Both the position numbers and the translations under genes were made by a program. Shown here piece by piece: positions 1,460 to 57,724 of a stretch of DNA of 64,000 nt. Under the pieces are notes generated by a model. The model did not search any database, had not been told where the DNA came from, and worked only from the letters and a program-made list of their open reading frames with translations. Origin of the DNA: Psychrobacter sp. AH5 (lineage in GTDB: Bacteria > Pseudomonadota > Gammaproteobacteria > Pseudomonadales > Moraxellaceae); contig NZ_JAMBMT010000001.1 of the NCBI RefSeq assembly GCF_040371085.1, forward strand, positions 1,612,001 through 1,676,000, written 5' to 3'. Each line of letters begins with the position of its first letter. Positions within the stretch are counted from its first letter, which is position 1.

Positions 1460-4400
1460 TTAATTTAATCCAAAATACTTAATAATACTCAGCATAATAG
1501 CATCCATAAGTTGCGAGTCATCTTCAATACCCAACTCTTGGTATTTGTCTGAAGCTGCAAATATTTCAATATAAACCTGCAAACGTGTAACTTCTTTAGG
1601 TATATCCTGCCAACCAATGTAAATTTTCCTTTTAACAATTAATTCTACTATATCCTTAGCAAGCTCTTTGGTTAACTCATCATTAAAGCTAATTAGATTG
1701 GCGTTTTTAATGTGGGCATAGATCTCAAACGTCCCTTTATCTGCAAATCCCATTTTTTGAGGCAAGGTAGCAATATCATCAAGTTCATCGTAAAGCTTTC
1801 CTAGCTCAAGTAAAAGCTGCTCAATCGCCTGATTTTCTTCATTTTTCTTTTTTACTAGCTCATCCAATCGGTTCTGAAACTCAACATATGCTGCACTATT
1901 TACTTCATTCCTGCGGATGACTGTTTCAATATCACGTATAATTTTTTCTGCCTTATCTGATGGAGACAACTTAGTTTGTCTTAACTCATCCAGATAGTTC
2001 GAATCAATAGTGACCTCAGGCAGATGTCCCTTAAAGTCAATTAATTGAGCGCTTTCTTCTATCAGCTTTCTAGTTTTAGCTGCATATATCTCAGCATCGA
2101 AGTCCAAGCGTTTAAATTCTTCCAGATAAATCTCATATATTACATTGAGCCATAGATACTTATTGCGGTACTCTCTTAGTTTAGGATGTGGTGATATTGC
2201 CTCCCATAACTGAAGTACTTCTTTATAATCCTGTTCAAATTTGCCTTGGTCTAATTCATTTAATTTGCGTACAATTGCCATTGAGCATTCGTAACTATCT
2301 TCTAGCTCTATATCTTCAAAAGGCTTTAATGCCGCTTCTAAAACCTTAGGAAACTGATCTACTAAACTCTCAACATCCTCAAACTCTCCGATGTCTTCAG
2401 GATCATAATTTAAAGCTGCTTTATAGTTTTGGAATACGCCAACATAGTCCACAATGCGACCAAACTCTTTAGATAGATTAGATATTTTGTCATCATAAGG
2501 GCGGTTAGTACGAGCAACTGCTTGTAGTAAGTTGTGGTCTCTAATTGGACTATCCAAATACATGGTTTGTTCAATGGGTGCATCAAATCCAGTAAGAAGC
2601 ATATTGCAAACAATAATGATTTTAAGGTTATTACCACTCTTCAATTCTTTAGGAGTAATACGTTTTTTAAAGTTCGTAATTAATTTACGACGTTCTTTAT
2701 CTTCTTTATAATGATCTTTGAACAGCTCGTACTTCTCACCTTCTTCATAATTACCTGTAGAGAAGATAATCGTCATTTCTGATTGATCAAAATAATTTAG
2801 TAGCTCATTATAGTAAAGAACACACGCTTCTTTATCACAGGCTACTAGCTGTGCCTTATAGCCTTGAGGCTCAACACCTTCTTTGAAATCGTGAGCAATA
2901 TCTTTGGCAAGAACTTCGATTCTATCAGGATGTTTTAAAAAAACCTTCCACGCCTGAACTCTTCTCTCTACTAGTCTCTTTTCATCTTCACTTAAATCAG
3001 CCGCAATCTCATCATAGCCTTGCTTGAGCTTATCTTTGTCAAGAAACCATTCTTGCGGACCGAAAGTGTAGCGAATGGGTACAGTAGCTCCGTCTTCGAT
3101 AGCGTCTTGAATGCTATACTTGTCTAGATAATGCTCATGAGAGCCTTCTTCCTTTTTTATACCAAATTCTTGATGAGTCTTGGGGATTGGTGTGCCGGTG
3201 AACGCAAAACGACGCGCGTTAGGCAAAACGTTTTGTAGCTCTATCTGAAAGTTACCATACTGAGTACGATGTGCCTCATCAATAAGTATAATGATGTTAT
3301 CTCGAGAGTCTTGGACATTACCAAGCTCTCTAAATTTTTGCACTGTAGTGATAAACACCCCTGCTGGTGATTTATCAATAATATATTTTAAATCGCCGAT
3401 GTTGTGGACAGGCCTAACATTAGGAAAGTCGCAATCATCGAAAGTCCCACCTATTTGCTCTCGAAGCCCCTTACGGTCGACTACTATGTATACGGTTGGA
3501 TCTTTAAGTGAGGGAGTATTGCGAAGCTTATAAGCGGTATATAGCATGGTCAAGCTTTTGCCTGACCCTTGAGTATGCCATATTACACCTTGCTTTAAAT
3601 CCGACTCTGCAACTCGGTGCACGATTTTATTAGCCGCACGAAATTGCTGATAGCGTGCTACTTTCTTGATAACACTGCTTTCAGCTCGCTCAAAGACCAA
3701 AAAGTTTTTAACAATATCTAGCACTCGAGCTGGTTGTAACAGACCAACTATACCAAGCTTCATCTGCTCTAAGACTTTACCGTTAGGTAAGCGCTCTACA
3801 TCGAAGTGATAAAAACCATCTTCTTCATTTATTGAGGTATGGCATAGATCATTATTTTCATCCAAGATAGGGTTGGGATAATCTGTTTCTAACAAAGTAC
3901 TCTTCCATTCGTTGAAATACGACGAAGATGCGCCTAGAATACCGTATTTTGCAATGCGCCCATTACATGCCACACCAAAGCCGTGACACATATAGAATTT
4001 ATCAGCACGTTGTTTGTAGGTAGAAAACTGCTTAACACCTTCGAGCCAGTTCGTGCCCTTGCGTGCTCGTTGTTTTGCTTCAATAGGCACTAATGGAATA
4101 CCATTTACCAACAGGACGATATCCGTCCTTACCAATTCCAAGCCTTGTACTGAATACTGGTTGGTGACGATAAAGCTATTTTGCCAAATATCATTAAAAT
4201 CAATAAAACAGAAATCTTTATCCTCACCGTCTACTGATAAAGTAATACCCTTTACAAGCTTTTCTAAAAAAGCTTCGTTTCCAAGAGTCGGGTTAAAATT
4301 ATTAAAGTTGTGAGTTAACTGCTCTACCACTCTCTCGGCGATATCGACTGAAACCTGATTGATACTAGCGACTTTATCAATAAGAATTGTGTCGATAATA

Positions 4401-4522
4401 GGATTGGCAACTGGTCGGTTATACCTTTTTAAGTCATTACAACTTTCAAAGACCCAACCCATCTTAGATAACCATTCCGTGACTGGCTTCTCAACACCTT
4501 TAAGTTCTGACAGTTTACCCAT
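1460..4522 (-). CDS. hsdR: Type I restriction enzyme R (endonuclease/translocase) subunit
   Basis: A 1020-residue protein of normal HsdR length. The N-terminal PD-(D/E)xK nuclease region shows Asp134 and the Glu148-Ala-Lys150 pair. The SF2 motor follows, with Walker A TQGSGKS at 317-323, DEAH at 415-418 and TGTP at 442-445. The C-terminal part is helical and presumably docks on HsdM2S. R subunits use ATP to pull in unmodified DNA past the enzyme and cut it at a distance. The gene begins 3 bp after the hsdS stop and is followed by the YgjP-type peptidase, in the order hsdM-hsdS-hsdR-peptidase. All visible catalytic motifs are intact, so the subunit looks functional. Recognition specificity cannot be told from the sequence. 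Confidence 0.97.
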   Translation of the reverse strand: MGKLSELKGVEKPVTEWLSKMGWVFESCNDLKRYNRPVANPIIDTILIDKVASINQVSVDIAERVVEQLTHNFNNFNPTLGNEAFLEKLVKGITLSVDGEDKDFCFIDFNDIWQNSFIVTNQYSVQGLELVRTDIVLLVNGIPLVPIEAKQRARKGTNWLEGVKQFSTYKQRADKFYMCHGFGVACNGRIAKYGILGASSSYFNEWKSTLLETDYPNPILDENNDLCHTSINEEDGFYHFDVERLPNGKVLEQMKLGIVGLLQPARVLDIVKNFLVFERAESSVIKKVARYQQFRAANKIVHRVAESDLKQGVIWHTQGSGKSLTMLYTAYKLRNTPSLKDPTVYIVVDRKGLREQIGGTFDDCDFPNVRPVHNIGDLKYIIDKSPAGVFITTVQKFRELGNVQDSRDNIIILIDEAHRTQYGNFQIELQNVLPNARRFAFTGTPIPKTHQEFGIKKEEGSHEHYLDKYSIQDAIEDGATVPIRYTFGPQEWFLDKDKLKQGYDEIAADLSEDEKRLVERRVQAWKVFLKHPDRIEVLAKDIAHDFKEGVEPQGYKAQLVACDKEACVLYYNELLNYFDQSEMTIIFSTGNYEEGEKYELFKDHYKEDKERRKLITNFKKRITPKELKSGNNLKIIIVCNMLLTGFDAPIEQTMYLDSPIRDHNLLQAVARTNRPYDDKISNLSKEFGRIVDYVGVFQNYKAALNYDPEDIGEFEDVESLVDQFPKVLEAALKPFEDIELEDSYECSMAIVRKLNELDQGKFEQDYKEVLQLWEAISPHPKLREYRNKYLWLNVIYEIYLEEFKRLDFDAEIYAAKTRKLIEESAQLIDFKGHLPEVTIDSNYLDELRQTKLSPSDKAEKIIRDIETVIRRNEVNSAAYVEFQNRLDELVKKKNEENQAIEQLLLELGKLYDELDDIATLPQKMGFADKGTFEIYAHIKNANLISFNDELTKELAKDIVELIVKRKIYIGWQDIPKEVTRLQVYIEIFAASDKYQELGIEDDSQLMDAIMLSIIKYFGLN

Positions 4523-4525
4523 GAC

Positions 4526-5848
4526 TTACGCCTTATCCAATAGCTTATTTATTTTGTCCACATCCACTCGGACTTTTCCTGTTAATAGGTTTTGCATTAA
4601 TGATTTTTTTAAACTTTTAAGAGTTTTTACTTTAGCATTCTTAGAAACTACAATATTGTTTACCTTATCTATATTTTCAGCAATTAAAACTTGCTCAGTA
4701 AGTGACTCAGGTATTACAAATTTAAACTTCCTAAAATCACTTAAAGATAAGTTTGCTCGTGCGGTTTCAACTTGCGAACCAAGAAGCCTTCTCTGTGTTT
4801 TGTCAGTTTGTAGATAATAGGCTAAAAATTTACTATCGTTACCTTCATTAGACCTAAAAACACAAACTGCCTGATTTGTATTAGCACACTTGACATTCAA
4901 ATCATAGACTGCACAGCGTCCGATAGAAGCTCCTACAATATTAATTAAGATATCGCCTTTAATTAACTGACTGTTTTTTATTTTATTATTGAACTCAATT
5001 GGTAGATATTTTGGCTTAGATACATCAATATATCCATCTCTAACGTTTTCACTTGTTATAAACAGTATGCCTGAAGATTGATAGTCAAATCCTTGCCATT
5101 TAGGTGATTGGCCTTTAGCAATTTTTGTAGTAATTATATTTCCTTTTACTACAGACCAGCCTTTTGGGATTTTTCCAAGCTTATCATCATTATAGAACTC
5201 ATCTTCCTTTCGCCAAGTCCAATCAGGCTTCAACTTGCCAATTAGTAAATTTTGCATTAGTGATTTTTTAAGGCATTCTGCTGAAAGAATACTATTCTCT
5301 ATTGCTTCAATAGATTCATCTACTGTAGACAGAATGCCAGCAATAGCTTTTTGTTCAGGAAGTGGAGCACAGGGTAGCTTAAGTTTTGAAAAATAACGTT
5401 TTGATAACTCGATCTGATTTGTTGATCCTGTATAGCAGACCGACTCCAAATATCGTTGACCAAGTTCAGATGTCAAAAAGTAGCGAGCATATGTACTATC
5501 AATGGAATCTTCCGTCGTTCTTAGTACAGTAACATGACTGTCCGCAACTGCCTGAACGTCAGAGTATGACCATTGATTTACTCTACCTATAGTACCTGTA
5601 CCTGTAGAGTTGATTAGAATATCCCCTTCACGCAAATAGAAAGAATCATCTATCTGATTAGGTACTACATGATATTTAACCTTTTCTAAATTAACGCAGT
5701 TCCATCTAATGCAATCTTGATTAACGACAAACAAGCCCTGATCATCTTCACTATAAATAGGAGACTTGCCACGACGCATAAAGGTGTTGTTATCTTTCAA
5801 TTGCTTTTCAGTCCAGCCTATAGGCAAATTTTCAATAACTTTTTTCAT
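4526..5848 (-). CDS. hsdS: Type I restriction-modification specificity subunit S
   Basis: A 440-residue protein with the two-fold layout of HsdS: target recognition domain 1 (about 1-155), a helical spacer (about 160-215), target recognition domain 2 (about 225-385) and a terminal helical spacer. The two spacers end in nearly the same 13-residue stretch, LKKSLMQNLLIGK at 193-205 and LKKSLMQNLLTGK at 413-425, and their coding DNA is also similar. The TRDs read the two halves of a bipartite target and anchor HsdM and HsdR. The start codon overlaps the hsdM stop by one base (TAATG), a sign of translational coupling. The two TRDs differ strongly, so the target should be asymmetric. The sequence motif recognised cannot be predicted by eye. 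Confidence 0.95.
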   Translation of the reverse strand: MKKVIENLPIGWTEKQLKDNNTFMRRGKSPIYSEDDQGLFVVNQDCIRWNCVNLEKVKYHVVPNQIDDSFYLREGDILINSTGTGTIGRVNQWSYSDVQAVADSHVTVLRTTEDSIDSTYARYFLTSELGQRYLESVCYTGSTNQIELSKRYFSKLKLPCAPLPEQKAIAGILSTVDESIEAIENSILSAECLKKSLMQNLLIGKLKPDWTWRKEDEFYNDDKLGKIPKGWSVVKGNIITTKIAKGQSPKWQGFDYQSSGILFITSENVRDGYIDVSKPKYLPIEFNNKIKNSQLIKGDILINIVGASIGRCAVYDLNVKCANTNQAVCVFRSNEGNDSKFLAYYLQTDKTQRRLLGSQVETARANLSLSDFRKFKFVIPESLTEQVLIAENIDKVNNIVVSKNAKVKTLKSLKKSLMQNLLTGKVRVDVDKINKLLDKA

Positions 5849-7887
5849 TATTGAATTACCTCCATTAGTTCCTTAAGTAAGTCATCAAACGAACTTTCAA
5901 TAACTAATGACGACTTAAAGTCTGAAACTGCTTCTTTTAAATCAATTTCTTCTTCAGGCTCAAAAGTATCAACGTAACGTGGAATATTAAGGTTAAATTC
6001 GTTTTCTTCCAATTCTTCCATATCTACTACAGAGAAATAACGCTTACTTAGCTGTGGATCAGCTAGTACAGTTAATAACTCAGTTTCGACCTCATCAATA
6101 GCCAGTCGCTCTTTATTTGCTTGCTCTTGAGCATCTGATATTTTTTGTTCTTTTTCAAAGATCAGCTTTTCGAGTAAATCTTCGCCCTTTACTTTGTTAT
6201 TGATCATCGTTTTAGTTGGCTTTTTATCTTCAGACTCTCGCTTTAATATCTGCTCATCCGCTTCTATTATTTTATTCTTAGCAAACTCAATGTCATCAAT
6301 ACTATCAATCTCTATTTCATTTAGTTTAAAAGCTAGCTCTTCATCAATAAGTTCACGCAGCCGCGTTTTTTGCGAGTCTATCCACGCTTTGGCTATTTCT
6401 ATATCACCCCAGCTCTCTAATATGGTAGATATACGCAGCATATCTTGCGGCATAAGCGTATTCATATTGGACTCTTCTTTATACCAGCCCTCTCTAGCAG
6501 CATAGACCATCAGCACCTTGTTTTTGCGCTCTTCTGGTTTATTTTTATCAATAAGCAAGATTGAGCCAGGTATTGTCGTTCCATAAAACAAGTTGCTCGG
6601 TAATACGACTATGGCATCAATAATGTTGACGCCCTTAACGAACTCACCGTCCTTATTAACTGCACCTTGTAAAAAACCACGACGAATTAAATATTCATCA
6701 TCCGCTTTGCGGTTCTGTCCATCCTCTTCTTCCGTTTTTTCAGGCTGACCACGAAACAATACCCCTTGTGGGCATACTACACCAGCCTTACCATTTTCAT
6801 TGATTGAGGCAACGATATGCTGTAGAAATGCGAAATCACCATTTGAATAAGGCGGAATGCCATAATCAAAACGTTTATATTGATCACTGAACTCTTCTTT
6901 ACCTGGATAGCTCAGTTTAGGAGAGCCATCCTTATTAGTTTCAGGTTTACCCTTTTTGTTCTTCTTAGGTTCACCGTTCTTCCACCAGTTTTCCTGTGAG
7001 AATGGGAAATTAGCAGTGGCATAATCAAATTTCTTTATAGCTAAACTATTATCTTCTTCAGTAAATTTAGGGTCTTTTAGAGTATCCCCTTTTTCGATAG
7101 AAGCGTCTAACCCATGAAGAATCATATTTATATTAGCAATTGCCCAAGTATTCCACACATCCTCTTGCCCAAATAACCGAATGTTTTTTTGAGATCCTGT
7201 GGTTTTTTTGATGTATTTGGCGGCATTAATTAAGAAGCCTCCAGAACCACAAGTTGGATCGTATAATGTAGTGCCTTTTTGAGGCTTTAGATAACGCACG
7301 ATAATATCAACGACTTCTTGCGGGGTATAAAACTGCCCAGCCGTAGTGCCACCTTTATTTTCGTCTGCAAATCGCTTAATCAGGTATTCATAAGCATCAC
7401 CAAGTATATCTACTGAAGCATTTCTATTACTTAAATCTACTGCATCCAAATAGCTAACTAGAAGGCTAACAACCTCAGGATGCAACTTTTTACCACCAGA
7501 ACCATCTGGAGATGGCTCATTCCAGCGTACTGTATTGATGACGCCCTTAAGTGATGGGTTAGCATCAGCAATTGCATTAACGGCTTTATTTAAAGCATCG
7601 TTTTTTCTATCCAATGGTGCGTTTCGGACATCTGTCCAAAAATGACCTTCAGGAATAATAAAGTCGTGTTTGTCCTTAATAATTTTTTGTTTTTGTTTTT
7701 CATTAGGCTCTACGCCATACTCTTTTACAAACTCTTTGATGCCATGCTCAATCTCCCAAGCATAGTTGTCTGATAAGCGCTTAAAGAATAGGAGTGATAG
7801 TATATATGACTTATAATCCTCAACTTTATCTCGTAGAATATCTGCCATTCCAAAAAGAGTACTACCTAATGCTTGCTTACTAATCAT
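5848..7887 (-). CDS. hsdM: Type I restriction-modification DNA methyltransferase subunit M
   Basis: A 679-residue N6-adenine methyltransferase. It has an N-terminal helical HsdM domain, the segment TAGQFYTPQEVVD (residues 182-194), the SAM-binding motif I YDPTCGSGGF at 209-218 and a catalytic motif IV NFPF at 293-296. Motif IV is usually NPPF or NPPY in this class; the Phe in the second position is a variant but keeps the catalytic Asn and the Pro-Phe pair. The C-terminal third is rich in charged helices. HsdM protects host DNA and with HsdS forms the core methylase. A GGAG sequence sits 6 bp before the start at 7887. It is the first gene of the hsdM-hsdS-hsdR operon, so the promoter should lie in 7888-8130. 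Confidence 0.96.
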   Translation of the reverse strand: MISKQALGSTLFGMADILRDKVEDYKSYILSLLFFKRLSDNYAWEIEHGIKEFVKEYGVEPNEKQKQKIIKDKHDFIIPEGHFWTDVRNAPLDRKNDALNKAVNAIADANPSLKGVINTVRWNEPSPDGSGGKKLHPEVVSLLVSYLDAVDLSNRNASVDILGDAYEYLIKRFADENKGGTTAGQFYTPQEVVDIIVRYLKPQKGTTLYDPTCGSGGFLINAAKYIKKTTGSQKNIRLFGQEDVWNTWAIANINMILHGLDASIEKGDTLKDPKFTEEDNSLAIKKFDYATANFPFSQENWWKNGEPKKNKKGKPETNKDGSPKLSYPGKEEFSDQYKRFDYGIPPYSNGDFAFLQHIVASINENGKAGVVCPQGVLFRGQPEKTEEEDGQNRKADDEYLIRRGFLQGAVNKDGEFVKGVNIIDAIVVLPSNLFYGTTIPGSILLIDKNKPEERKNKVLMVYAAREGWYKEESNMNTLMPQDMLRISTILESWGDIEIAKAWIDSQKTRLRELIDEELAFKLNEIEIDSIDDIEFAKNKIIEADEQILKRESEDKKPTKTMINNKVKGEDLLEKLIFEKEQKISDAQEQANKERLAIDEVETELLTVLADPQLSKRYFSVVDMEELEENEFNLNIPRYVDTFEPEEEIDLKEAVSDFKSSLVIESSFDDLLKELMEVIQ

Positions 7888-13414: not shown

Positions 13415-14377
13415 TTACGCAGCTTGACGATAATAATCAAACCACACCTGTCTTGGCGATTTATAGCCCAAGCCCTTTTGAATTCTCGTTTGGTTGTAAT
13501 ACAGCTCAATATATCCAACGATATCGCTGATAGCTGCAAATCTTGTTTTATAGTCCTGGTGATATACTAGCTCATTCTTCAATATGCCCCAGAAGCTTTC
13601 TATGGGCGCGTTATCAAAGCAATTACCTTTAGCGCTCATTGAACCTGTAAACTGATGCTGCTTGATGATCTTATGGTACGCGTGGCTACAGTACTGACTG
13701 CCTCTGTCAGAGTGGACTATTAGCCCTTGGCTGGGTCGTTTGTTCTTAATAGCCATATTGAGTGCACGGCAGACCAAATCTGCGGTCATGCGTTTGTTGA
13801 TAGCGTAACCGACAAGCTCTTTAGTGTATAAGTCTTTAACGCCTGCTAAATACAGCCAGCCCTCATTTGTCCAGATGTAAGTAATATCACTAACCCAAGA
13901 TTCATTGGGACGATTGGTATCAAACTTCTGATCGAGCACGTTGTCATAGACAAGTTTGTTGTGATCAGAGTCGGTTGTCACTTTAAAACGCTTGTGACGA
14001 CGGCATTTGATGCCGTGTTCCTCTTTGATGCTTCTGACCATGTATAGACTAATATTATGCCCTTGCTCGGTGAGCGTGGCATGCAGTCGATCAACACCAT
14101 AGCGCTCACGAGCTTCACTATGAGCGGCTTTAACTAGTAGCTCGCACTGATTGCGGTGTATCTGCTGACAGCTGATTTCACGACTCAGCCAGTCGTAGTA
14201 GCTTGATGGTTTAACGCTGAGTACGCGGCACATTCTACTGATGCTAAAGACTTGCTGGTTGTCTTTGATAAAGGCGTACTTTACTAACTGTTTTTCGCGA
14301 AGTACGCCGTCGCCAACTCGAGCATAGCTCTCACCTTGCGTCGGGGCGAAGCAGTGCTTCGCTTTATCCCTCCTCAT
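13415..14377 (-). CDS. IS3-family transposase OrfB (DDE integrase domain)
   Basis: A 320-residue protein with the IS3 OrfB order: HTH_21-like region with AFIKDNQQVFSISRMCRVL, then the rve integrase core. The DDE triad is visible: Asp in WVSDITY, Asp in HSDRGSQYC and Glu in APIESFWG. The frame begins in an overlap of 14 bases with orfA. In most IS3 elements OrfAB is made by a -1 frameshift on an A-rich slippery site; here the overlap has no classical slippery run, but contains ATGAGGAGG, so the reading of orfB could instead rely on coupled re-initiation. The first 30 residues of the frame are not typical of the family and may not be used. Confidence 0.92.
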   Translation of the reverse strand: MRRDKAKHCFAPTQGESYARVGDGVLREKQLVKYAFIKDNQQVFSISRMCRVLSVKPSSYYDWLSREISCQQIHRNQCELLVKAAHSEARERYGVDRLHATLTEQGHNISLYMVRSIKEEHGIKCRRHKRFKVTTDSDHNKLVYDNVLDQKFDTNRPNESWVSDITYIWTNEGWLYLAGVKDLYTKELVGYAINKRMTADLVCRALNMAIKNKRPSQGLIVHSDRGSQYCSHAYHKIIKQHQFTGSMSAKGNCFDNAPIESFWGILKNELVYHQDYKTRFAAISDIVGYIELYYNQTRIQKGLGYKSPRQVWFDYYRQAA

Positions 14378-51386: not shown

Positions 51387-51950
51387 ATGACTCTTCGTGT
51401 AACAACTCGCTCTTCTGTCTTGCTGCTGCTATTGGCCAGTAGCCCTTTTTTACTGACAACCAGTTATGCAGGCAGCGACTCGAGCTTAGAGAAAGCAGGA
51501 AGTGTCGTTGCCATAGCGATACCAGCTATCGCTTATGGTAGCACTTATTATAAGGATGACAAGCAAGGCCGTGAGCAGTTTTATCAGGCTTTTGGTACTA
51601 CTGTGGCGACCACTTATGCGCTAAAAGCGGTTATTGATAAAGAGCGACCCAATGGCGACGGTGATAATTCTTTTCCTTCTAGTCATGCCTCAGCAGCTTT
51701 TCAGAGCGCAAGCTTCATCCATCAGCGTTATGGACTTGAGTATAGCATTCCGGCCTATTTAGGCGCAGGTTTTGTCGCTTATAGTCGGCTAGAAGCAGAT
51801 GAGCACGATACAGTAGATGTGTTAGCGGGAGCGGCTTTGGGCATGGTAAGCAGCTGGTATTTTACCACCAACTATAACGATCAGCTGCTCATTGCGCCTA
51901 ATTTATCGCCCGATTATTATGGCTTGACGGTCAACTATCAATTTAAATGA
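51387..51950 (+). CDS. PAP2-superfamily phosphatase, exported
   Basis: A 187-residue protein if started at the ATG at 51387, which gives a clean signal peptide (basic start, hydrophobic LLLLLASSPFLL, AYAG-type cleavage); GGAAA stands upstream at 51374. The acid-phosphatase motifs are present: KERPNGDG, SFPSSHAS and SRLEADEHDTVDVLAG. There are no further membrane helices, so it looks like a periplasmic or outer-membrane-associated phosphatase, similar to small PAP2 proteins of Acinetobacter. Substrate may be lipid phosphate or pyrophosphate; not decided by sequence. Confidence 0.8.
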   Translation: MTLRVTTRSSVLLLLLASSPFLLTTSYAGSDSSLEKAGSVVAIAIPAIAYGSTYYKDDKQGREQFYQAFGTTVATTYALKAVIDKERPNGDGDNSFPSSHASAAFQSASFIHQRYGLEYSIPAYLGAGFVAYSRLEADEHDTVDVLAGAALGMVSSWYFTTNYNDQLLIAPNLSPDYYGLTVNYQFK

Positions 51951-52221
51951 TTTACTTTAATAATAGTACTAGCTCTCATTATCAAAGTTTAGTACAATGC
52001 TCAAAATCTGTGCCTAAGCGAGTGGACATGATGTAAGTTACTCTTCACCAATATGTGAACCAAGTATCTTTTCATCTATTTGTCTTCTCGCTTTTTTGTG
52101 GAAAAATTTTGACTGTAGTTGATTTTATCGCTTCATAAAAATAAGCATAAATTATCGATTCATTACCAAATTCACTTCTACAAAAATGACGGCAATCAAC
52201 ATAAATAGCGGAGGCAAACCC

Positions 52222-53463
52222 TTGAATTCATCGACACAAACACAAGCAATTTTGGCATTAGCAGATGGGACGATTTTTCGAGGGGTAAGTATCGGTAGCA
52301 GCGGTCATAGGGTCGGTGAAGTGGTTTTTAATACCGCCATGACTGGCTACCAAGAAATCCTAACCGACCCAAGCTACGCGCGTCAATTGGTCACCCTCAC
52401 CTATCCGCATATCGGCAATACTGGTACTAATGATGAAGATGGTGAATCGGGTAACGTCGATTATAAGCATCAAGTCTGGGCTGAAGGCCTAATCATTCGT
52501 GATGCGACTTTATCCACTTCTAACTTTCGCAGCACCGAATCGCTTAGCGACTATTTACAGCGTCACGATACCGTCGCTATCGCTGAGATTGATACTCGTC
52601 AATTGACTCGTTTACTACGTGAAAAAGGCTCGCAAAACGGTTGTATCTTGACCGCCTCTAACGGGAATGAAATCAGCCCTGAAGACGAGCAAAAAGCTCT
52701 ACAACTGGCCAAAGAATTCGCTGGTATAGAAGGCATGGACTTGGCAAAAGAATGTTGCCATCCTGAAGGCTTTGAGTGGACAGCAGGCACTTGGGAATTA
52801 TCAGACACCTTGCTTAATCGTGATGCGCCGGGCAGCCATGACAGCGGTACCGGTGGCTTCTTCAAACAGTTAGGTACGCATATTGAGCATAAATATGACG
52901 TGGTAGCTTATGACTTCGGCACCAAGACCAATATCCTGCGTATGCTAGTAGACCTCGGCTGTAAAGTCACCGTTGTGCCGGCGCAAACGCCTATTGAAGA
53001 CGTCATCGCGATGAATCCAGATGGTATCTTTTTATCAAATGGCCCTGGTGATCCAGCGGCGTGTAGCTATGCTATCGATAGCGTCCGTCATATCATCGAA
53101 GAAACCGACATTCCAACCTTTGGCATTTGCTTAGGTCATCAGCTTGTCGGACTTGCCAGCGGTGCCAATACTATCAAGATGAAAACCGGCCATCATGGTG
53201 CCAACCATCCGGTACAAGATCTTGAGACGGGCGTAGTCATGATTACCAGTCAAAATCACGGTTTCGCAATCGATGAAGACACTTTGCCGGATAATGTAAA
53301 GTCCACTCATCGCTCACTCTTTGACGGTACTAACCAAGGCATTGAGCTAACCAATAAGCCAGTATTTAGCTTCCAAGGCCATCCAGAAGCCAGTCCTGGC
53401 CCGCATGATGCGGCTGAATTGTTTGCTAAGTTTGCTGGGATGATGGAAAAGGCTAAGAAATAG
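52222..53463 (+). CDS. carA: Carbamoyl-phosphate synthase, small (glutaminase) subunit
   Basis: A 413-residue protein. The open frame reaches back to an ATG at 52186, but GGAGG at 52210-52214 lies 7 bp before the in-frame TTG at 52222, and translation from there gives the family start ([18 protein letters not shown]); the TTG is preferred. The C-terminal class I glutaminase domain has FGICLGHQL with the catalytic Cys and the His/Glu pair in FQGHPEAS. The enzyme frees ammonia from glutamine for the CarB subunit, making carbamoyl phosphate for pyrimidines and arginine. The next gene, 2 bp away, is not carB but an mrr-like gene. Confidence 0.95.
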
Positions 53464-53465
53464 CA

Positions 53466-54431
53466 ATGAGTATTCCACATTTTGATGACTTGAGAAAGCC
53501 TATACTGATGCTTCTAAATGATGGTGAAGTATGGAAAAAATCTGAGTTTACAGAACCTCTTATAAAACATTTTAACCTAACCAAGGAAGAAGCATCCGAG
53601 GAATATGAATCAGGTAATGGACTTATATTAGTTGATAGGATTTCTTGGGCATTAAGTTATTTCGCTCTTACAGGAATGTTACATAGACCAAAAAGGGGTT
53701 ACTACAAACTCAATGGTTTAGGAAAATCCTTTTTAAATAAGAGTAACGAAGATATTAATATCTTTGTTAAGCAAAAAATGGCAGAAAGACAAGCGGAGAA
53801 ATCAAATCAAACCTTGTTAACACGAGATATTCAAGATAAGCATCCTAATCAAAACACCAATACACCTCAAGAACAGTTGTATGCTTCTTATGAAACTATT
53901 CGCCAAGAAACTTATGACGAAATATTAGATACTATTTTAACTAAAACGCCTTTATCTTTTGAGCGTCTAGTTGTTGAGCTTCTACAAAAAATGGGATATG
54001 GCGGTGCAGTTGAAAAAGCAGGCCGAGTGACACAGTATGTCAAAGACGGTGGTATTGACGGTGAAATTTATGAAGATGTATTAGGCTTAGGAAGAATACA
54101 TATTCAAGCAAAACGTTATAACAAAGCCAGCGCTATTGGACGTCCAGACATTCAGAGTTTCGCCGGTGCCTTGCTTGGTGATAACGCAAACAAAGGCGTA
54201 TTCATAACTACTTCAAGATTTTCTGCCGATGCAATTGCTTACGCGCAAAATTTATCTAATGCAAGAATTGCTTTAATAGACGGTCAAAAACTTGCTGAAT
54301 ATATTTATAAATATGGATTAGGTGTTCAGGTTGAACAAACTATTAGCATAAAAAAACTTGATACAGATTATTGGGATAATATGCCTGATGATACCAATTT
54401 AACTAAATCTGAACACACTATTTTAAATTGA
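53466..54431 (+). CDS. Mrr-like type IV restriction endonuclease inserted between carA and carB
   Basis: A 321-residue protein with a winged-helix Mrr N-terminal domain (about 1-95, with [21 protein letters not shown] in two halves) and an Mrr catalytic domain (about 160-275). Catalytic residues are visible: Asp in [11 protein letters not shown], then IQAKRY as the Gln-x-Lys form of the PD-(D/E)xK site typical of Mrr. Mrr enzymes cut methylated DNA. The start is 2 bp after the carA stop and carB begins 35 bp after its end, so it must be read from the carAB mRNA. Its codons are visibly richer in A and T than those of carA and carB, suggesting transfer. No strong ribosome-binding site precedes the ATG. 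Confidence 0.85.
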
Positions 54432-54466
54432 AATCCCCACCCGCCAAAATAGGACTTAAAAACATT

Positions 54467-57400
54467 ATGCCAAAACGTACCGACATAAAAAGCATTCTTA
54501 TCATTGGCGCCGGCCCCATCGTCATCGGTCAAGCTTGCGAGTTTGACTATTCAGGCGCGCAGGCGTGTAAAGCCCTTCGCGAAGAGGGCTACCGAGTGAT
54601 CTTAGTCAACTCAAACCCAGCCACTATCATGACCGATCCGGCAATGGCTGATGCCACTTATATCGAGCCGATTACTTGGCAAACCGTTGAGCAAATCATC
54701 GATAAAGAGCGCCCTGATGCTATCTTGCCAACCATGGGCGGTCAGACCGCACTCAACTGTGCCCTAGAGCTGGACCGTAATGGCGTGTTAGAAAAATACG
54801 GCTGTGAGCTAATCGGTGCGACCAAAGACGCCATCGAGATGGCAGAAGACCGCGACTTATTTGACAAAGCGATGAAGCGTATCGGCCTTGAGTGTCCGCG
54901 CGCTGAGATCGCAAATACCATGGAAGAGGCGTTTGCCACTCAAGAAAAAATGGGCTATCCGTGTATTATTCGTCCCTCTTATACCATGGGCGGCTCAGGC
55001 GGCGGTATCGCTTATAACCGCGAAGAGTTTATCGAGATTTGTGAGCGCGGTTTTGACTTATCGCCTACTCATCAGCTGTTGATTGATGAATCACTAATCG
55101 GCTGGAAAGAGTACGAGACCGAAGTAGTACGTGATAAAAACGACAACTGTATCATCATCTGTACCATTGAGAACTTCGATCCGATGGGTGTGCATACCGG
55201 CGATTCTATCACTGTGGCGCCCGCGCAAACTTTGACCGATAAAGAATATCAAATCATGCGTAATGCTTCACTGGCAGTACTGCGCGAAATTGGGGTTGAG
55301 ACCGGCGGCTCTAACGTGCAGTTTGGTATTAACCCAAAAAATGGTCGCATGGTGGTCATTGAGATGAATCCGCGCGTGTCGCGCTCATCAGCACTAGCCT
55401 CAAAAGCAACCGGCTTCCCGATTGCCCGTATCGCGGCGAAGCTTGCGATTGGTTATACCTTGGATGAATTGCAAAACGATATCACTGGCGGCGCTACTCC
55501 TGCTAGCTTTGAGCCAACGCTTGATTATGTCGTTACCAAAATTCCACGCTTTAACTTTGAGAAGTTCCCGCAAGCGGATAATATCTTATCGACGCAGATG
55601 AAATCAGTCGGTGAAGTGATGGCTATCGGCCGTAACTTTCAAGAGTCGATGCAAAAAGCGCTGCGCGGCCTTGAGACTGGCGCCGATGGTTTCGATGAGC
55701 AAATTGACTTAGCGGCAGTGAAACCTGAAAAAGCCCGTAGCGAGATTATCAATCGTTTGACGGTACCCACCCCTGATCGTATCTTCTATATCGGCGATGC
55801 TTTTCGTATCGGCATGAGCGTCAATGAAGTGTTTAAATTCACTAACGTCGATCCTTGGTTCTTGGTACAAATCGAAGACATTATTAAAACCGAAGAGCAT
55901 ATCAAAGCGCTTGGGTTTGGTGATTTAAATGAGAAAAACCTGCGTAGCTTTAAGCGCAAAGGCTTATCTGATCTGCGTTTAGCCAAACTACTGGGTATCT
56001 CGCAAAAGCAGCTACGTGCCAAGCGTTGGGATTTGAATATCCATCCGGTCTATAAGCGCGTCGATACCGCAGCGGCAGAGTTTGCCACCAGCACCGCCTA
56101 TATGTACTCAAGCTACGATAGCGAATGTGAAGCCAATCCAACCGATAAAAAGAAAATCATGGTCATAGGTGGCGGCCCGAATCGTATCGGTCAAGGCATT
56201 GAGTTTGACTACTGCTGCGTCCATGCGGCTCTTGCCATGCGCGAAGATGGCTATGAGACCATCATGGTCAACTGCAACCCCGAAACCGTCTCGACCGACT
56301 ATGATACCTCAGATCGCCTCTACTTTGAGTCCATCACCTTAGAGGACGTATTAGAGATTGTCCGTATTGAGCAACCTGATGGCGTTATCGTGCAATTCGG
56401 TGGACAGACGCCACTGAAACTTGCTCGCGCGCTAGAGCAAGCTGGCGTCAACATCATCGGTACTAGCCCTGATGCTATCGACCGCGCTGAGGATCGCGAA
56501 CGCTTCCAGCACATGATTCAGCAGTTAAACCTAGTGCAGCCAACCAACGCTTTGGCCACTAGCTTAGAGGATGGTTTAATCAAAGCCAAAGACGTCGGTT
56601 ATCCGCTAGTAGTACGCCCCTCTTACGTATTAGGCGGTCGGGCGATGGAGATCGTTTATAACGAAGACGAGCTTAAGCACTATTTGCGCACCGCAGTACA
56701 AGCGTCGAACGAAGCGCCAGTACTCCTTGATCGCTTCTTAGATGATGCTGTTGAAGTCGATGTCGATTGTGTCTGTGACGGTACTGACGTAGTGATCGGC
56801 GGCATCATGCAGCATATCGAACAGGCTGGCGTGCACTCTGGTGACTCAGCGTGTTCATTACCGCCTTATTCATTATCGGATGAGCTGTGCGATGTGATGC
56901 GCGAGCAAACGGTTGCTATGGCAAAAGAGCTTGGCGTCGTCGGTCTGATGAACGTGCAGTTTGCGGTCAAAGGTGAAACCGTCTATATCTTGGAAGTCAA
57001 TCCACGCGCCGCTCGTACCGTGCCTTTCGTTTCAAAGTGCATCGGTACCTCATTAGCACAAGTGGCCGCTCGCTGTATGGCGGGTACTTCTTTAAAAGAC
57101 CAAGGATTTACTACTGAGATTGTGCCGTCATTTTATGCGGTAAAAGAGTCAGTCTTTCCCTTTGCCAAATTCCCAGGCGTTGATCCTATTCTAAGTCCTG
57201 AGATGAAATCGACTGGGGAGGTCATGGGCGTAGGTAAAACCTTTGGCGAGGCCTTTTATAAAGCCGTTATCGGTAGTAATGAGCGCCTGCCCGGATTGCC
57301 TGTTGAGGGCGAGACCAAAACGGTCTTTATCTCGGTGCGTGATAGCGACAAAGAACAAATCGTCCCTGTGGCGCGTCAGCTTAAAGACTATGGCTTTGAG

Positions 57401-57724
57401 ATCGTCGCGACGACGGGCACGCAAGCGGTGTTGGCGGATAATGGTATTGAGTGTAAGCAGATTAATAAAGTCACCGAAGGTCGCCCGCATATCGTTGACG
57501 CGGTCAAAAACGGCAAGATTGATTTGATTATTAATACCACTGAAGGTAAGCAAGCGCAAGAGGACTCCTTCTCTATTCGCCGTAGCGCGCTACTTGGTAA
57601 AGTGTTTTATGTCACCACACTAGGCGCAGCAGAAGCGGTCTGCAAATCTTACGCTATTGACTTGCCGTTTGCGGTTTATAAGCTACAAGACTTACATGCA
57701 CAAGCTAAGCCTGTCGCTCAGTAG
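54467..57724 (+). CDS. carB: Carbamoyl-phosphate synthase, large subunit
   Basis: A 1085-residue protein with two homologous ATP-grasp halves and a C-terminal MGS-like allosteric domain (from about residue 940). The N-terminal start [20 protein letters not shown] is canonical, so the ATG at 54467 is used although the frame is open from 54428. [10 protein letters not shown] and the second-half [12 protein letters not shown] segments are intact. The enzyme makes carbamoyl phosphate from bicarbonate, ammonia and 2 ATP. An AGGA motif at 54451 suits its translation. It is part of the carA-mrr-carB arrangement. Confidence 0.97.

Follow-up and report, generated by a model that had tools for sequence, protein, structure and literature searches.

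The carA–carB junction of Psychrobacter as a probable minimal-mobile-element-like slot for accessory genes

The junction between carA and carB in Psychrobacter, and in a second genus of the same family, probably constitutes a slot resembling a minimal mobile element (MME), the content of which is replaced by homologous recombination. Genome comparison indicates that everything between the carA end and the carB start, one or two genes together with the carB leader, is replaced as a single unit. Near-identical units occur at the car site of species whose core genes differ by 16–20%, with some cassettes being 97–99% identical, and the predicted cargo is co-directional with the operon, usually starting at the carA stop or no more than 6 nt from it. 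The mrr gene found between carA and carB of Psychrobacter sp. AH5 is then one of several interchangeable alleles of this slot, which in the genus is filled by 11 unrelated gene families.

The mrr gene in the car locus of Psychrobacter sp. AH5

The stretch analysed here (the window) comprises 64,000 nucleotides of the Psychrobacter sp. AH5 genome, and the features of its car locus are collected in Table 1. An intact Mrr-type gene with AT-richer codons had been predicted between carA and carB from the letters alone, and both points hold: the 321-aa frame carries an Mrr_N and an Mrr_cat domain, is separated from carA by 2 bp and from carB by 35 bp with all three genes on the plus strand, and has a GC content of 0.345 and a GC3 of 0.227, compared with 0.476 and 0.455 for carA and 0.495 and 0.525 for carB. 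A repeat search of the window found no repeat pair bounding mrr.

Table 1 Features of the car locus in the window
Feature	Position	Strand	Description
carA	52186–53463	+	GATase and CPSase_sm_chain (Pfam); left flank of the slot
Slot as filled in the window	53464–54466	+	carA stop to carB start; gap of 1003 bp
mrr (321 aa)	53466–54431	+	Mrr_N winged-helix-type N-terminal domain and Mrr_cat nuclease domain (Pfam, PADLOC, conserved D198, Q214, K216)
carB leader, type L1	54432–54466	+	Common to cassettes with unrelated cargo
carB (ATG at 54467)	54467–57724	+	CPSase large chain domains (Pfam); right flank of the slot

Pfam placed Mrr_N at residues 6–91 (2e-18) and Mrr_cat at residues 161–279 (7.3e-32), both above the cut-off, and the best PADLOC match was mREase_IV (3e-61, residues 1–304). 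A weaker Pfam match was obtained for NA-iREase1, an inactive relative (1.2e-7), while NCBIfam gave nothing at 1e-3 and no solved structure was hit in a PDB sequence search (E ≤ 1). The catalytic residues of Mrr-type endonucleases are Asp and Gln/Glu-x-Lys, and those named in the original prediction (Asp ... Gln-x-Lys) are present as D198, Q214 and K216 and conserved across the aligned relatives. In this alignment of 30 Mrr relatives, hand-picked from the best 120 of 7015 matches among 8000 scored candidates, Q214, A215 and K216 show no variation and D198 reaches at least 90% conservation, with the Asp missing in one of the 30 (P0052). The same domains and residues characterise Mrr-type (type IV) restriction endonucleases such as E. 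coli Mrr, from which the window protein differs in its carAB location, methyl-dependence being a prediction only. Judging by family and residues, the window allele most likely encodes a type IV restriction enzyme directed against incoming modified DNA.

Between positions 51900 and 54700, seven promoter-like sites were found where a mean of 7.5 is expected by chance, the sole terminator-like site lies on the minus strand, and Rfam returned no family matches. Since only 2 bp separate carA from mrr, mrr is likely expressed from the car transcript, and the single carA–mrr–carB mRNA that had been proposed remains likely with promoter-like sites at chance level and the lone terminator-like site on the opposite strand. 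In E. coli, arginine and pyrimidines repress carAB (PMC6245113), and the same compounds control it in Pseudomonas (PMC4997734).

Elsewhere in the window, three minus-strand frames at 1460–7887 resemble, by eye, a type I restriction-modification set (HsdR-, HsdS- and HsdM-like). These are AT-rich (GC 0.34–0.38), and the genome that carries them also bears the mrr cassette. Another minus-strand frame, at 13415–14377, resembles an IS3-type transposase by eye.

The slot and its cargo in Psychrobacter and beyond

In 99 of 100 genus genomes, carA and carB were found on one contig. G079, which is marked as the window's own species and is 77% complete, lacks both car genes, and the occupancy counts compare species and not strains of one. 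G077 was dropped from the gap counts, as its carB frame is broken and its carB start lies earlier, making its 634-bp gap an artefact. Counted from the true carA stop codon, 26 of the 98 gaps are occupied (483–2021 bp), and 72 are small (47–296 bp, median 153). Each occupied gap holds one or two AT-rich genes, the main frames being on the carAB strand throughout the 26 genomes; minus-strand frames of 60–111 aa are also present and were treated as chance. Mean GC is 0.334 in occupied gaps and 0.482 in the flanks. The first cargo gene starts from 4 nt before to 6 nt after the end of the carA stop (−4 to +6) in 24 of the 26 genomes and overlaps the stop in 10, the exceptions being G082 (35 nt) and G076 (34 nt). 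At the carA–mrr junction of G076 (L039), a tandem duplication of ~32 bp has left two mrr starts: the first leads into a stop, and the intact one lies 34 nt beyond the carA stop.

BLAST at 1e-3 separates the cargo proteins into 11 clusters that do not hit one another. Pfam matches above the cut-off were obtained for two of ten cargo representatives, namely AAA_21/AAA_15 and PIN, and for none of the other eight; by PADLOC, the AAA_21/AAA_15 cargo is PtuA-like (2e-36). Several of the Pfam-less proteins have starts that read like those of exported proteins. A family of about 183 aa (170–184 aa; L047–L051, L053–L056) occurs at the car locus only (9/9), and one of its members gave a very weak PtuB match (0.019). 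The ATPase family has two close members in the slot (100 and 63%) and relatives at 43–52% elsewhere in 17 other genomes, so that the family as a whole is not bound to the slot. The small gap of G055 ends in a remnant of the end of a G072-type PIN gene, apparently a trace of loss. The cassette genes of G083 (L044) and G089 (L038) share signal-peptide end and tail around unrelated bodies, a pattern that suggests exchange inside a cassette gene.

In the 26 occupied genomes, none of the gap frames was seen to be an integrase, transposase, recombinase or other mobility gene, and Pfam found none in the ten cargo representatives scanned. An integrase-carrying element, be it an island, a transposon or an integron, was considered and rejected on the lack of integrases and transposases in these frames and of bounding repeats in the window. 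Neighbouring gaps were compared in 41 loci, i.e., the window and 40 others chosen mostly for occupied slots and their kin, five of them from the second genus. Gaps above 450 bp were counted for carA–carB in 20 of 41, carB–greA in 4 of 41, HAD–gCA in 17 of 34 and greA–DUF11 in 17 of 31 cases, and for gCA–PAP2 (0/15), radical-SAM to next gene (0/16) and PAP2–carA (0/21, including four wrong hits with negative distances) in none. The car neighbourhood is hence not rigid, making this comparison a weak control for slot occupancy.

Matches to the window Mrr at E ≤ 1e-3 were found in 29 of the 100 genus genomes (own included), and are full-length in four: the window's own, G031, G043 and G076, the latter three at 85–86% identity to the window Mrr. 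The remaining matches, at 29–40% identity, extend at most over approximately residues 105–307 of the window Mrr and involve chiefly its nuclease part. All four full-length copies sit inside the carA–carB gap, and with such copies in 4/100 genomes, mrr is not ancestral to the genus as a whole; the refuting case named with the original prediction, the gene at one and the same site in all relatives, does not apply. At the family level (149 genomes), three genomes match at 1e-60, namely the own genome, G145 of another genus (66%), where the Mrr gene begins 3 bp after carA, and G159 (40%), where no car gene lies near the Mrr gene. At the class level (369 genomes), the four matches at 1e-60 are the own genome and three at 50–54%, for which neither carA nor carB was found within 0.7–1.5 kb on each side.

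These counts bear on the original suggestion that a toxic Mrr gene is kept stably by its place in the operon and expressed in step with growth via the car promoter. In favour of this, the position and direction of mrr and promoter signals at chance level agree with shared transcription, and carAB of E. coli is repressed by arginine and pyrimidines. However, the position is common to unrelated cargo, most of which shows no nucleases or toxins by Pfam and PADLOC, and most relatives are without mrr and give no sign of its substitution by a similar gene. As most cargo is unrecognisable as nuclease or toxin, a landing place tolerating co-directional genes fits better than toxic-gene control, and a role of the latter kind is very improbable.

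The second genus (group g7, same family) was represented by six genomes, five of which have a carA–carB gap above 450 bp. The slot of G145 holds Mrr followed by HEC-01A (3e-139) and HEC-01B (5e-76; DUF4276), that of G105 a PtuA-like ATPase and a frame resembling the PIN protein of G072, those of G138 and G130 a PhzF-family protein (Pfam run on one of the two), and that of G150 an exported-looking protein together with an ICMT-family protein. In G120, a 77-aa frame lies in a 384-bp gap. Both putative defence-like cargo types of Psychrobacter thus recur in the second genus.

A wider scan of named genomes with carA, a patchy sample, covered at least 80 loci. Among the loci listed, carB lies downstream in 77, with a gap above 450 bp in nine of these; outside Psychrobacter, the listed loci with carB downstream have such gaps in 8 of 73 cases, and one of the four Psychrobacter loci listed does so, with the 183-aa family. 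By eye, the gap of Moraxella catarrhalis contains two frames, one PIN-like (56 aa) and one ICMT-like. Four Pseudomonas loci and one Aquitalea locus listed have a LysE-type frame of 217–218 aa in the gap (Pfam checked on one), filling the same junction as in Psychrobacter. Yet the Pseudomonas cases seen involve one conserved gene per lineage, whereas Psychrobacter has alternative cassettes. The Arenimonas and Lysobacter loci listed show gaps above 450 bp with other frames, and in all nine Acinetobacter loci listed the gap is −1 to 15 bp. The carA–carB region of Neisseria gonorrhoeae is variable, and a literature search found nothing on that variable region.

Exchange between species and the ends of the units

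Slot states were mapped on a ClpB tree, a single gene's tree, of 60 genomes (all 26 occupied ones and 34 chosen others). Slot state changes at least 24 times on this tree (mean of shuffled labels 26.1, range 24–27), occupied and empty states change at least 19 times (19.7, range 15–24), and the 183-aa family requires seven changes (8.5). The numbers lie near those of shuffled labels, and slot occupancy thus hardly tracks the ClpB gene tree. The tree pairs G043 with the empty G097 (SH-aLRT 100) and G031 with the empty G012 (98).

By identity at four-fold sites, cassettes can be much more similar than core genes. For G009–G026, it is 1.00 in the cassette (50 sites) and 0.57 in clpB (345 sites), and the corresponding values for cassette and clpB are 1.00 and 0.39 (G035–G069), 0.98 and 0.53 (G035–G062), and 0.98 and 0.42 (G069–G062). 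Altogether, 24 of 61 same-family cassette pairs exceed clpB by more than 0.1 in this measure, and the AT-rich make-up of the cargo may account for part of the small excesses.

In the case of mrr, four-fold-site identity is 0.82 for G076–G043 and 0.72 for G031–G076, compared with 0.44 and 0.42 in clpB. The window mrr has 0.52–0.53 with the other three copies, and clpB 0.44–0.46, which is no clear excess. A recent insertion into the window's genome, as originally supposed, is therefore unsupported, the window mrr being about as diverged from the other copies as clpB. That divergence, together with the occurrence of one Mrr family directly after carA in two genera (66% identity), would suit an ancient vertical gene that the shared ancestor of these genera already had in carAB and that was then lost often, with other cargo arriving later. 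Such a history is nevertheless improbable: the four mrr carriers need four changes on the ClpB tree, one per carrier (shuffled mean 3.9), and as the copies of G076–G043 and G031–G076 are much closer than the core genes, at least those copies have moved.

The ends of the replaced units can be located in the near-identical pairs, with the end of the actual carA stop codon as the reference point. The last carA mismatch and the first carB mismatch fall at −14 and 57 for G035–G062 (cassette 98.2% identical), at −5 and 18 for both G035–G069 (97.4%) and G069–G062 (98.2%), and at −5 and 120 for G009–G026 (99.4%), and carA differs at 17–42 of 206 sites in these pairs. Relative to the empty G029, G009 is identical in carA from −41 to −17, differs from −16 to the carB ATG, and is then identical over 167 nt of carB; it carries the G029 base at carA −51 and the G026 base at −42. 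From this base switch and the carB mismatch, the left crossover of G009 would lie in the conserved end of carA and the right one within carB 1–119. Several left ends of units fall in the variable carA tail. Flank identity profiles of close pairs did not differ from those of empty–empty control pairs and contained no long imported tracts. Among same-cargo genomes, sharing of carB nt 1–50 is marginal (85/2000 shuffles), and no sharing was found for the carA end (240/2000) or carB 100–200 (820/2000).

The carB leader appears to travel with the allele. Leader L1, the type seen in the window, accompanies four kinds of cargo and occurs in 12 of 26 occupied gaps and in 0 of 71 small gaps, whereas L2 is found in 63 of 71 small gaps, and this small-gap leader is absent from all 26 occupied gaps; the leader classes were defined after viewing the sequences, and G055 was counted apart. 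In 13 small spacers that were aligned (L069, L082, L084, L088, L099, L101, L102, L110, L111, L117, L119, L121 and L067), a hairpin-like inverted repeat, GCTTGAA ... TTCAAGC, is common along with a fixed carB leader; the stem sequence of the L111 spacer differs yet still pairs.

Downstream of the leader, the first dozen codons of carB (54467–54502 in the window) are near-fixed at the nucleotide level across 98 Psychrobacter genomes, with a mean major-codon fraction of 0.95 in codons 2–12 compared with 0.75–0.81 later. In G031 (L031, ~1215–1240), a 24-nt copy of the carB start lies between mrr and the second cassette gene, matching at 27 of 30 nt where the best of 30 shuffles reached 19. Both observations could be accommodated by site-specific integration, in which the near-fixed first 24–36 nt of carB would serve as the attachment site where a recombinase acting in trans inserts or exchanges small non-autonomous cassettes: such a copy is what integration would leave there, and in each of the three near-identical species sets the units stop at carB. 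It remains an unlikely explanation, however, as G031 alone has such a copy among 27 gaps above 450 bp and no recombinase was found in the gap frames or, by Pfam, in the ten representatives. The right ends moreover vary (18, 57, 120), and the left end of G009 can be placed inside conserved carA. In Pseudomonas, the carB start is similarly conserved, in an AT-rich form, and the gaps are small, which argues that the conservation has another cause. Homologous recombination is the best reading of the unit ends, short of proof.

Proposed exchange by homologous recombination and relation to known systems

Under homologous recombination, DNA from related car loci would bring in the units, probably through natural transformation, and the resident allele would be replaced through the conserved ends of carA and carB, the conserved carA 3' end being the presumed left and the near-fixed carB 5' end the presumed right recombination arm. 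The window's genome has a ComEC-type gene (PF03772, 156.9 bits), as do 10 of 14 control genomes; such genes are widespread in bacteria, so its presence merely permits natural transformation. The cargo is predicted to be promoterless and to be made from the car transcript through read-through and re-initiation, and only co-directional cargo would persist because carB must remain expressed. More speculatively, promoterless accessory and defence genes (Mrr, ATPase–PIN, HEC-01 and exported proteins) may be exchanged across genera as exact carA-end-to-carB-start units that include the carB translation signal, with an arginine/pyrimidine-controlled promoter driving, and perhaps timing, their expression and each allele resetting carB translation; this full set of proposals is possible, although doubtful.

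The car slot offers a small but unusually clear case of defence and other accessory genes settling in a core operon without the help of a mobile element. Its units can be followed at single-base resolution from one species to another, many alleles are empty, and two genera have cargo types in common. The 183-aa family and several exported-looking families share the site with defence-like genes and may merit testing as such. In addition, the slot offers a natural test of what happens to an important enzyme when genes are inserted between those for its two subunits.

Integron gene cassettes are small unidirectional units relying on an outside promoter, and the car cargo is like them in unit size, single direction and, presumably, reliance on an outside promoter. 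It differs in that no integrase is seen at the site, at most two genes are present, and the recombination ends are not fixed.

The closer parallel is the MME of Neisseria, reportedly treated by Saunders and Snyder in 2002 and by Snyder et al. in 2007. The first described MME (pheS–pheT) also sits between two subunit genes, and the operon placement of the car slot may therefore not be new. An MME is defined by different whole-gene cassettes that lie between two conserved genes according to strain and are incorporated through homologous recombination (PMC3082526, PMC3898611, PMC4269198), and most neisserial MME cassettes are restriction-modification systems, as cited in PMC4269198. The car slot likewise has conserved flanking genes and different whole-gene cassettes, with no mobility genes seen among its gap frames, and homologous recombination, the explanation given for the MME, is the one proposed for the car slot. 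Restriction genes are typical cargo in Neisseria, whereas most cargo of the car slot is not restriction-modification. The car slot further belongs to another bacterial family and another locus, the leader of the downstream gene is part of its unit, and its cargo starts at the carA stop and presumably relies on the operon transcript. A literature search covering few subscription papers did not turn up any paper that deals with a gene slot in carAB or with Psychrobacter carAB. Slot swapping of this kind is known, and within the literature searched the carAB junction is a new and very clear example of it.
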